64,000 bases of DNA from Bartonella melophagi K-2C (GTDB lineage Bacteria > Pseudomonadota > Alphaproteobacteria > Rhizobiales > Rhizobiaceae): contig NZ_JH725081.1 in assembly GCF_000278255.1 (NCBI RefSeq), positions 162,484 through 226,483 on the forward strand, given 5' to 3'. Below the pieces are notes generated by a model that ran no database searches, was not told the DNA's origin, and saw only the letters and a program-made list of their open reading frames with translations. Below, in pieces: positions 58,768 to 61,821 of the stretch (positions are counted from its first letter, which is position 1; each line of letters opens with the position of its first letter). The position numbers and the translations under genes were made by a program.

Positions 58768-60354
58768 ATGGTACAAATTTCTGCTTATTTTCAACTTATG
58801 CGTGCAGGATGGATTTTAGCGCGTGAGGGTGTCCTTAGTGCTCTTCCAAGAGAAGGTCTTCATGGCCCTCTGGCGACATGTCATCATATAGCAAGAATTT
58901 TAGCACGGCGTAAAACAAAAAAGAAGCACCGGTCTGAAAATATGTCACACGCCATTAATAAGCTTGGCCCCTCTTATATTAAGCTTGGTCAATTTCTTGC
59001 CACCCGACCTGACATTGTAGGGCGTGATATTGCTAAAGATCTGGCACAGCTACAAGACTGTGTCCAAACATTTCCTTGTACTGCAGCTATTGTTCAAATT
59101 GAAAGTTCGCTAGGTCGCCCTATGGATGATTTATTCATAGACTTCTGTCCGCCTATTGCTGCTGCTTCTGTTGCCCAAGTTCATCCAGCTGAATATTATG
59201 ATGAAACAGGTCATAAAAAAAAATGTGCCGTTAAAGTTATCCGCCCCAATATCAGAAATCGTTTTGCCAAAGATCTTAAAAGTTTCTACCTTATTGCCCG
59301 TTTGCAAGAGCGTTATATTCCCGCTTCTCGACGTTTACGCCCTGTTCGTGTGGTTGAAACTTTGGCACAAACTACCCGTATTGAAATGGATTTACGCTTA
59401 GAAGCAGCTGCTCTATCAGAAATGGCTGAAAATATTCAAAATGATGTAGGTTTTCGGGTGCCTCTTGTTGATTGGGAAAGAACAGGGCGCGATGTTTTAA
59501 CGATGGAATGGATTGATGGCATAAAAATGTCTAATATTCCAGCACTTAAAGAAGCAGGTTTTGATTTAAAAAATTTAGCAACCACGCTTATTCAATCTTT
59601 CCTTCGCCACACACTACGGGATGGTTTTTTTCATGCTGATATGCATCCTGGTAATTTATTTGTAGATCGGCAAGGGTGTATTGTTGCAGTTGATTTAGGA
59701 ATTACAGGGCGGCTTAGTAAAAAAGAAAAATATTTCCTCGCTGAAATTCTTTATGGTTTTATTACTCGTGATTACTATCGAGTGGCACGTGCCCACTTTG
59801 AAGCAGGATATGTACCACCTCATCACAGTATTGAAAGTTTTGCTCAAGCCAACCGAGCTATTGGTGAGCCTATTCACGGACAATCAGCGCAAAGCATTTC
59901 CATGGCCAAATTACTCACACTTTTGTTTGAAGTTACTGAATTATTTGACATGAAAACCCGACCTGAACTTTTGTTGCTGCAAAAAACTATGATTGTTGTA
60001 GAAGGTGTAGCTCGTACATTGGACCCAGCTTTTAATATGTGGAAAGCCTCCGAACCAGTTGTTAAAGAATGGATTGGCAAAAATTTAGGACCTATGGGGC
60101 TTATCCAAGATTTTAATGAGGGAGCACAAGCATTGTTTTCACTAGCACGTCAAACACCAAAATTAGTAAAAAACTTTCAACGTATAGAAGAAAATCTCAG
60201 CCAAATAACAAAAACAGGACTGTATCTTTCCCCTCCCACCTTTAAGCACTTTGTTTTCGAACAAAATCGTAATCACCGTTATAGCCGTTATAATTTATTT
60301 ATCACGACCCTTTGTCTCATTATTCTAGGCTTTTTTCTTTTTCATTTTTTCTAA
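58768..60354 (+). CDS. ubiB: UbiB protein kinase-like ubiquinone biosynthesis factor
   Basis: 528 residues. The family-specific KxGQ motif is LGPSYIKLGQFLATRPDI near 68-85, the Ala-rich loop is AAASVAQVH, and the catalytic region has FFHADMHPGNLFVD and VDLGITG in place of DFG. Two C-terminal membrane segments end the protein (LFITTLCLIILGFFLFHFF). It is the partner of UbiE; UbiB-type ATPases support extraction of ubiquinone intermediates from the membrane. Confidence 0.95.
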   Translation: MVQISAYFQLMRAGWILAREGVLSALPREGLHGPLATCHHIARILARRKTKKKHRSENMSHAINKLGPSYIKLGQFLATRPDIVGRDIAKDLAQLQDCVQTFPCTAAIVQIESSLGRPMDDLFIDFCPPIAAASVAQVHPAEYYDETGHKKKCAVKVIRPNIRNRFAKDLKSFYLIARLQERYIPASRRLRPVRVVETLAQTTRIEMDLRLEAAALSEMAENIQNDVGFRVPLVDWERTGRDVLTMEWIDGIKMSNIPALKEAGFDLKNLATTLIQSFLRHTLRDGFFHADMHPGNLFVDRQGCIVAVDLGITGRLSKKEKYFLAEILYGFITRDYYRVARAHFEAGYVPPHHSIESFAQANRAIGEPIHGQSAQSISMAKLLTLLFEVTELFDMKTRPELLLLQKTMIVVEGVARTLDPAFNMWKASEPVVKEWIGKNLGPMGLIQDFNEGAQALFSLARQTPKLVKNFQRIEENLSQITKTGLYLSPPTFKHFVFEQNRNHRYSRYNLFITTLCLIILGFFLFHFF

Positions 60355-60370
60355 TTTGCTTAATATGCTA

Positions 60371-60415
60371 AAAAGAATAAAGTTTATGAAATCATTGAAA
60401 TCACTTTATTCCTTT
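60371..60415 (+). promoter_or_regulatory. Inverted repeat in front of the RHH-coaBC fusion gene
   Basis: Arms AAAAGAATAAAGT (60371-60383) and ACTTTATTCCTTT (60403-60415) are complementary at 12 of 13 positions. The 19-nt centre contains the direct repeat TGAAATCA twice with one base between. It ends 11 bp before the ATG and overlaps the GGAAG ribosome binding site region. Because the encoded protein starts with a FitA-like operator-binding domain, an autoregulatory operator is a reasonable guess. Confidence 0.5.
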
Positions 60416-60426
60416 GGAAGCATTTT

Positions 60427-61821
60427 ATGGCCAGTATCACTATCCGTAATCTTTCACCTGAAACCAAAGCAATGTTGCGCACAAGGTCTGCACAAAATGG
60501 TGTTTCTATGGAAGAAGAAGCCCGTCGTTTGTTAAGTAATCCCAGCGCATTATCCATACCACCATTACAAGCAAGTACTGTCGAAATGCAATCATTGCAA
60601 TCAAAATCTGTGCTTCTCATTATCGGCGGTGGAATTGCTGCCTATAAAGCACTTGATTTGATTCGTCGTTTACAAGAACGTGGAGCGCATTTGAACATTA
60701 TTATGACAAAAGCGGCTCAAAAATTTGTTACCCTCTTAGCAGCTGAAGCTCTGAATGGTGGTGCTGTATATAGTGATTTATTTTCACGTGAAAAAGATCA
60801 TGATATTAGTCATATTCGGCTAGCACGTAATGCTGATTTAATTATTTTAGCACCAGCTAGTGCTAATCGTATTGCAAAAATGGCCGTCGGTATAGCAGAT
60901 GATCTAGCTGGTTGTGTGCTTTTAGCAGCACGTTGTCCACTTTTGATTGCTCCAGCTATGAATCCGGCTATGTGGGCTCATCCTGCAACTGTACGTAATG
61001 TCGCACAATTGCATGCCGATGGGGTTCATATAGTAGGACCAGAAAGTGGTAAAATGGCTGAACGAGATGAAATAGGTTATGGACGTATGAGTGACCCTTT
61101 AACCATTGTAGCCTCAGTAGAAACTCTTTTGAGAGAGCAAGAAAAACCGCTTTCTGGTCGTCATTTTATTGTTACTTCTGGCCCCACATACGAACCAATT
61201 GACCCGATGCGTTATCTTGCCAATCGCTCCTCAGGCAAACAAGGCCATGCAATTGCAACAGCTTTAGCCAACTTGGGAGCTGTAGTAACACTTATTTGTG
61301 GACCTGTTAATCTTCCTGATCCACAAAATGTAAAAACTATTCACGTGGAAACGGCTTGTCAGATGTTAGAAGCTGTTCAAGCTGCACTACCCGCTGATGG
61401 TGCTATTTTTGTTGCTGCTGTTTGCGATTGGCGTAGCCAAACGCAATCTTTACAAAAAATCAAAAAGGAGAATAACAAAATCCCACCATCTTTGCATATG
61501 GTTGAAAATCCTGATATTTTGGCAACTATCGGTCACGCTTCAAACCGACCCCCACTCGTGATTGGTTTTGCTGCTGAAACATGTGACATTATTGTGAACG
61601 CACAAAAAAAATGTGTTCAAAAAGGAGCAGATTTCATTCTTGCAAACGATGTTTCTCTCCACACTGATGGAACAAGCGTAATGGGTGGAGATACAAACAA
61701 AATTTGTCTGGTCAGTAAAAAAACTGTTGAACAATGGCCATGTATGAGTAAACAACAAGTAGCTAAAAAATTAGCAAAGATTATTGTGTCATTTTTTCAT
61801 TCTCTTTCCACCACTGATTAA
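60427..61821 (+). CDS. coaBC: CoaBC (phosphopantothenoylcysteine synthetase/decarboxylase) with N-terminal FitA-like ribbon-helix-helix domain
   Basis: 464 residues. Residues 1-37 (ASITIRNLSPETKAML.., MEEEARRLL) have the pattern of the FitA/VapB-type RHH antitoxin domain. After a ~22-residue Ser/Gln linker, the CoaC flavodoxin-like domain starts at about 60 (KSVLLIIGGGIAAYKALDLI). It has the catalytic His in ISHIRLARNAD and the APAMNPAMW motif. The substrate clamp SGKMAERDEIGYGRM lacks the Cys of the E. coli enzyme. CoaB (about 245-460) carries TSGPTYEPIDPMRYLANRSSGKQG, AAVCDWR and GFAAET. Together they convert phosphopantothenate to phosphopantetheine in CoA synthesis. No PIN toxin gene is adjacent. 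A GGAAG lies eight bases before the ATG, which supports translation of the fused form. Confidence 0.93.
   Translation: MASITIRNLSPETKAMLRTRSAQNGVSMEEEARRLLSNPSALSIPPLQASTVEMQSLQSKSVLLIIGGGIAAYKALDLIRRLQERGAHLNIIMTKAAQKFVTLLAAEALNGGAVYSDLFSREKDHDISHIRLARNADLIILAPASANRIAKMAVGIADDLAGCVLLAARCPLLIAPAMNPAMWAHPATVRNVAQLHADGVHIVGPESGKMAERDEIGYGRMSDPLTIVASVETLLREQEKPLSGRHFIVTSGPTYEPIDPMRYLANRSSGKQGHAIATALANLGAVVTLICGPVNLPDPQNVKTIHVETACQMLEAVQAALPADGAIFVAAVCDWRSQTQSLQKIKKENNKIPPSLHMVENPDILATIGHASNRPPLVIGFAAETCDIIVNAQKKCVQKGADFILANDVSLHTDGTSVMGGDTNKICLVSKKTVEQWPCMSKQQVAKKLAKIIVSFFHSLSTTD

Follow-up and report, generated by a model that had tools for sequence, protein, structure and literature searches.

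Why should an enzyme of CoA biosynthesis begin with the DNA-binding domain of an antitoxin? The question is raised by a gene of Bartonella melophagi K-2C lying at positions 60427..61821 (+ strand) of the window, that is, of the whole stretch of 64,000 nucleotides (64 kb) under analysis. An earlier note had described its product as a FitA-like ribbon-helix-helix (RHH) domain joined in frame to a complete CoaBC, and had offered two explanations: a CoA enzyme that also binds DNA and regulates transcription, or an oligomerisation module captured from a toxin-antitoxin pair. As detailed below, the RHH head is accompanied by matching sites at its own gene, and the enzyme therefore probably controls its own expression.

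The RHH-CoaBC fusion gene

The open reading frame starts with ATG and encodes 464 amino acids. Both halves of the earlier description hold under profile searches, as residues 2-37 (60430..60537, +) belong to the FitA-like RHH family PF22513 (E 4.9e-14; 52.5 bits against a Pfam cut-off of 27) and the protein is assigned to TIGR00521, coaBC_dfp, with 389.2 bits against an NCBIfam cut-off of 219.7. The CoaC flavoprotein domain (phosphopantothenoylcysteine decarboxylase, PF02441) spans residues 60-231 (60604..61119, +), and the CoaB domain (phosphopantothenate-cysteine ligase; DFP, PF04127) spans residues 242-428 (61150..61710, +); many columns of both are invariant in an alignment of 53 fused proteins (alignment A2). 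The RHH and CoaC domains are joined by a linker, residues 38-59 (60538..60603, +), which is fast-evolving up to residue 52 and then contains conserved codons that coincide with an operator. With phmmer, the FitA chains 2bsq and 2h1o are matched only weakly (E 0.17; residues 2-40 on 1-39). The M. smegmatis CoaBC 6tgv is matched by residues 60-410. Like the window protein, this ordinary CoaBC (TIGR00521) has complete CoaC and CoaB domains; since the match starts at window residue 60 and chain residue 6, it differs in having no RHH head. Across the window genome (1.57 Mb in 13 contigs, completeness 100), profile searches found the fused gene as the sole match to PF22513 and zero matches to the PIN family PF01850. 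The nearest named relative among the best 80 of 170 loci is the Bartonella locus L003, with 94% identity.

Upstream of the fusion lies a gene that, read from its protein, is ubiB-like (58768..60354, +), and relatives were matched with this protein. The fused form is preceded by a probable ribosome-binding site, GGAAG (60416..60420, +), whose end is 6 nt from the ATG. Met54 was rejected as a translation start, as its codon is none of ATG, GTG or TTG in 8 of 33 Bartonella loci. TATGCT (60364..60369, +), read by eye, could at a weak guess be a -10 element; a consensus promoter scan returned none on the coaBC strand and did not pick it up.

Distribution of the fusion

Whole genomes were surveyed with a profile built from ten fused proteins, and a locus was taken as a candidate fusion if its match began at residue 1 or 2. 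All 32 Bartonella loci among the best 80 of 170 close-relative loci are fused. Among the matches listed, at least 31 candidate fusions come from the order survey (388 of 397 genomes matched) and at least 54 from the survey of the family to which the window belongs (245 of 247 genomes matched); in the latter a stop had been noted in four candidates, all of which proved fused once fetched. The family of genome G352 contributed 71 candidates out of 118 matches, with stops inside the match in two of its genomes (G694 and G716). At class level (289 genomes, 225 matched), the window genome alone matched from residue 1 among the matches listed, which thus include no candidate fusion outside the order. 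A genus scan placed PF22513 above the cut-off in 58 of 61 Bartonella genomes, in one of which (G1033) the matching frame is too short to encode CoaBC. In another Bartonella genome, coaBC is split (G1040:C1:41106-42496): one piece covers residues 1-228 and the other 223-464, stops were noted, and the split may be a real break or an assembly error.

A total of 291 loci, which are no random sample, were classed by the arrangement before and within coaBC: 142 are fused, 37 carry an antitoxin-toxin pair before coaBC, 106 are without an RHH, 3 have the toxin only, 2 the antitoxin only, and 1 has a stop between RHH and CoaBC. The fusion, whose spread the earlier note had left as a question, is thus widespread in Rhizobiales within the limits of this sample. 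The first 170 loci came from a close-relative scan, the order survey and regions picked from the order-survey list. Of the fresh 121, the class survey supplied 9 and the two family surveys 52, in each case as best matches; a further 40 were chosen because their match did not begin at residue 1, and 20 because it began at residue 1 or 2. L001 and L002 (the window gene again) and L173-L175 (other places in the window genome) were left out of the classification; among the classed loci, a few are one gene counted twice, as L083 is the window locus itself and the pairs L038/L214 and L075/L185 have identical CoaBC domains. A PIN toxin match before coaBC, with no RHH antitoxin detected, was seen in L144, L066 and L248.

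A putative upstream operator that accompanies the RHH domain

Repeated TGATTGCA/TGCAATCA units were noticed by eye in the upstream sequences. A motif of exact half-sites (TGATWGCA/TGCWATCA) occurred at least once in 36 of 37 fused loci outside Bartonella, 20 of 34 Bartonella loci, 8 of 21 antitoxin loci and 0 of 78 loci without RHH; it was rejected, having missed the upstream site of the window and 14 of the 34 Bartonella loci. After these first-set sequences had been inspected, it was replaced by the 17-bp pattern TGMNNKCANTGMNNKCA, a match being defined as at most 1 mismatch. This pattern was found in 33/34 Bartonella loci, 37/37 other fused loci, 13/21 antitoxin loci and 0/78 loci without RHH, and near 0 times in shuffles; the remaining 8 of the 21 antitoxin loci have 2-4 mismatches. 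In the window the upstream operator is TGAAATCATTGAAATCA (60387..60403, no strand assigned), which has 0 mismatches to the pattern, lies 23 nt before the ATG and is kept in relatives.

Since TGMNNKCANTGMNNKCA had been drawn from first-set data, the pattern was fixed and then tested on the 121 fresh loci, which are relatives, mostly of the same families, and not independent draws. It was present at no more than 1 mismatch in 68 of 71 fused loci (51 exact), in all 17 antitoxin-toxin loci (every one exact) and in 0 of 30 loci without RHH. The three fused loci without it (L206, L235 and L290) have 2-4 mismatches, and among the single cases it was found in the locus whose RHH and CoaBC are separated by a stop (1/1), being absent from the antitoxin-only (0/1) and the toxin-only (0/1) loci. 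Since it occurs in 0/78 and 0/30 loci without RHH, the operator does not belong to coaBC promoters in general. The window contains two matches against 0.15 expected, both at coaBC. The whole window genome contains five, and because the remaining three all fall within long reading frames, no regulon is claimed. A different candidate, the inverted repeat GAATAAAGT...ACTTTATTC, was discarded as operator after being seen in the window and L003 alone among 33 upstream sequences. It forms a perfect 9-bp inverted repeat (60375-60383 and 60403-60411) flanking the upstream operator.

A second putative operator inside the coding sequence of Bartonella

The other match in the window, TGCAATCATTGCAATCA (60587..60603, no strand assigned, 0 mismatches), is located 200 bp from the first within the coding sequence of the linker, where it makes up the DNA of residues 54-59. 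It is exact in 25 of 33 Bartonella loci and within 1 mismatch in 32 of them, the first of its codons being variable, and it is found at that threshold in only 1 of 106 fused loci outside the genus. Synonymous variation is low at this place: none of the 459 six-codon windows along the Bartonella gene has a lower pS than its 0.074 (median 0.427), and it ranks 2 of 458 with seven codons and 1 of 457 with eight. A cruder codon test gave a weaker result, 11 of 406 windows being as high. By the synonymous measure, the linker DNA itself is under selection. This conservation may partly have another cause, as the site is also intact where its expected partner is missing or poor: L297 and L298 (genomes G1065 and G1026) are Bartonella loci that have lost the RHH head and keep the operator-like linker sequence, and L299/L308 (one genome) combine a weak RHH and no upstream operator with an intact linker site.

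The distance between upstream and linker operators is 189, 190, 199, 200, 202 or 203 bp in 1, 1, 34, 3, 5 and 3 pairs, respectively, among 59 loci examined, which include a few duplicates and, as the remainder, loci without one of the two sites. This range corresponds to 18.0 to 19.3 turns of 10.5 bp, and with so few independent values helical phasing is only suggestive.

Selection on the RHH domain and its decay

In 33 Bartonella genes, pN/pS is 0.16 for the RHH, 0.142 for CoaC and 0.148 for CoaB, compared with 0.635 for linker residues 38-52; by this measure, the rate of change of the RHH is nearly as low as that of the enzyme domains. Thr5 and Arg7, which presumably belong to the strand that contacts DNA bases in RHH proteins, occur in every one of the 142 fused RHH domains, compared with 43 (Thr5) and 40 (Arg7) of 50 free ones. 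Operator decay tracks RHH decay in Bartonella, with exceptions: a low RHH score goes with operator damage across 53 distinct loci (Spearman -0.58 for the upstream and -0.28 for the linker site, kinship ignored). L030, L085, L304-L307 and L309 have a degraded RHH, scoring 25-36 bits against 59-70 in most Bartonella, together with a changed upstream operator and no linker operator. Two Bartonella have lost the RHH altogether.

Origin from toxin-antitoxin pairs

In many relatives, the gap between the ubiB-like gene and coaBC is the seat of an antitoxin-toxin pair, a free RHH antitoxin and a PIN toxin preceding coaBC in Hoeflea, Aureimonas, Aurantimonas, Bauldia and others. Pfam searches of such upstream pairs identified PF22513 and PF01850 in L039 and PF01850 in L064. 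The stop of the toxin gene overlaps the first possible start of coaBC by 4 nt in 22 of the 37 antitoxin-toxin-coaBC loci. In L038, L214 and L223, antitoxin, toxin and a fused RHH-CoaBC follow one another in series. The toxins found before coaBC appear by eye to be of two types (e.g., L039 2501-4400 and L064 2474-4382).

Traces of the transition are preserved in several loci. The fused locus L091 can be aligned with L093 in two blocks: positions 1-223 of both, covering promoter, operator and RHH, at 74%, and 323-411 against 997-1085, covering the junction and the start of coaBC, at 89%. Between these blocks, L093 has another RHH gene and the toxin gene that L091 has lost. The linker of L225 contains an antitoxin tail (E 3e-19 to the free antitoxin of L108), and a FitA-type tail is kept in those of L036, L037 and L215 (E 2e-14 to 2e-11). 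In all, 6 of 142 fused linkers have an antitoxin-tail match at E 0.01, with L091 and L068 matching weakly; the window linker, searched as L083 against 50 tails from free antitoxins, has no match at E 0.01. When the fused label is mapped onto a FastTree tree built from 141 CoaBC domains, it requires 18 changes, at least 8 of them forced by starred branches, and these changes alone leave gain and loss of the fused state indistinguishable; alignments of the L091/L093 type argue for gains. Since antitoxin tails or DNA of the toxin-coaBC junction survive in some fused genes, fusions would have arisen by loss of the toxin gene more than once, several independent fusions being the simplest reading. 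As tails are matched in just 6 of the 142 linkers, the other fusions may be older, may have lost the tail or may have arisen otherwise. The derivation of the head from a toxin-antitoxin system, put forward in the earlier note, is in this way borne out by the operons of relatives and by the tails and junction DNA within fused genes, so far as comparison of sequences can tell.

CoaBC as a probable repressor of its own gene

The reading that we favor, with a probability of about 0.77, is that CoaBC acts as a repressor of its own gene by means of an RHH domain domesticated from an antitoxin, and would thus be an autoregulating ('trigger') enzyme. DNA binding, as anticipated by the earlier note, gains support from the operator that accompanies the RHH, the invariant Thr5 and Arg7, and the decay of the operator where the RHH decays. 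In many Rhizobiales a FitAB/VapBC-type pair (RHH antitoxin, PIN toxin) stands directly before coaBC, and loss of the toxin gene would, more than once, have joined the antitoxin RHH to CoaBC. The fused RHH dimers would then bind the old antitoxin operator before coaBC, which consists of two 8-bp sub-sites 9 bp apart, and would repress transcription of the gene; repression rather than activation is what we infer. The linker operator of Bartonella, 189-203 bp off, suggests that repression there may be cooperative or looped.

RHH domains dimerise, and the head could instead be a mere dimerisation or assembly module for CoaBC, its DNA binding being vestigial. The near-equal conservation of RHH and enzyme would fit this idea, as would the oligomeric state in which CoaBC works (PMC7794376). 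We nevertheless consider it unlikely, for it leaves unexplained an operator that lies beside nearly every fused gene examined and is absent from genes without RHH, the invariance of Thr5 and Arg7, and the joint decay of operator and RHH. A related idea is that the fusion is a neutral relic of toxin loss, tolerated and functionless, next to an operator that persists just as a part of the promoter. In some Bartonella the RHH is indeed lost or degraded and coaBC persists, so that the domain is dispensable there, and the linker operator persists without RHH in L297/L298. We regard this idea as improbable: a relic would hardly show a pN/pS close to that of the enzyme and Thr5 and Arg7 in 142/142 fused domains, and a promoter element should not be missing, at the threshold of 1 mismatch, from all 78 and all 30 loci without RHH. 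There is finally very little probability that the fused head still has antitoxin activity and neutralises, in trans, a toxin of the PIN family. Tails are kept in the fused linkers of L225, L036, L037 and L215, and an antitoxin-toxin pair is found just upstream of the fused gene in L038, L214 and L223, which speaks for such a role; against it stand the window genome, with no PIN match, and the linkers, with tail matches (E 0.01) in only 6 of 142, the window's not among them.

The toxin FitB promotes DNA binding by FitA by stabilising the antitoxin-toxin assembly (PMC3920265, PMC5086665), mycobacterial CoaBC is a dodecamer, and CoaB is inhibited by CoA and CoA thioesters (PMC7794376). The oligomeric CoaBC core would probably replace the toxin in holding RHH dimers together on DNA and, given the dodecamer and the inhibition by CoA thioesters, the enzyme could be both clamp and sensor. 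A metabolite-sensing autorepressor, in which up to six RHH dimers per dodecamer loop the operators and CoA thioesters or substrates shift the grip on DNA, is a possibility that we advance only tentatively and do not expect to hold in all its parts. If true, the CoA state of the cell would govern how strongly coaBC is transcribed, by way of a domain that toxin-antitoxin systems have supplied repeatedly.

Relation to known systems

The same RHH family is found in FitAB/VapBC-type modules (PF22513 plus PF01850), which precede coaBC in relatives, most of them with the same operator. The window differs from these in having no toxin gene and an antitoxin head fused to a biosynthetic enzyme, and a recognisable toxin-binding tail is kept in few fused proteins. 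The closest functional parallel would be PutA, an RHH-containing proline enzyme that is an autorepressor of its own gene (PMC5879082). Both proteins carry an N-terminal RHH on a metabolic enzyme; repression and ligand are putative for RHH-CoaBC, which further differs in enzyme and pathway and in having an RHH from a toxin-antitoxin family. No published report of RHH-CoaBC autoregulation was found in the literature searched, most subscription papers being outside its reach, and the main text of Makarova 2009 (PMC2701414) contains no CoaBC, Dfp or pantothen- word.

Should autoregulation be correct, CoA biosynthesis in many Rhizobiales would have a built-in transcriptional control, derived from a toxin-antitoxin module domesticated into a core enzyme. 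Its apparent intermediates are extant, namely the operon, the operon plus a fusion, the fusion with an antitoxin tail, the fusion without a recognisable tail and the decayed fusion. Why antitoxin-toxin genes adjoin coaBC so often is a question raised by 37 of the 291 loci. The concrete prediction is the defined 17-bp operator. Within 130 nt upstream of fused genes outside Bartonella, two operator matches are present in 71 of 106 loci and three in 7, most often spaced by 9 or 22-23 bp, which suggests a row of three sub-sites or a pair of sites in tandem.
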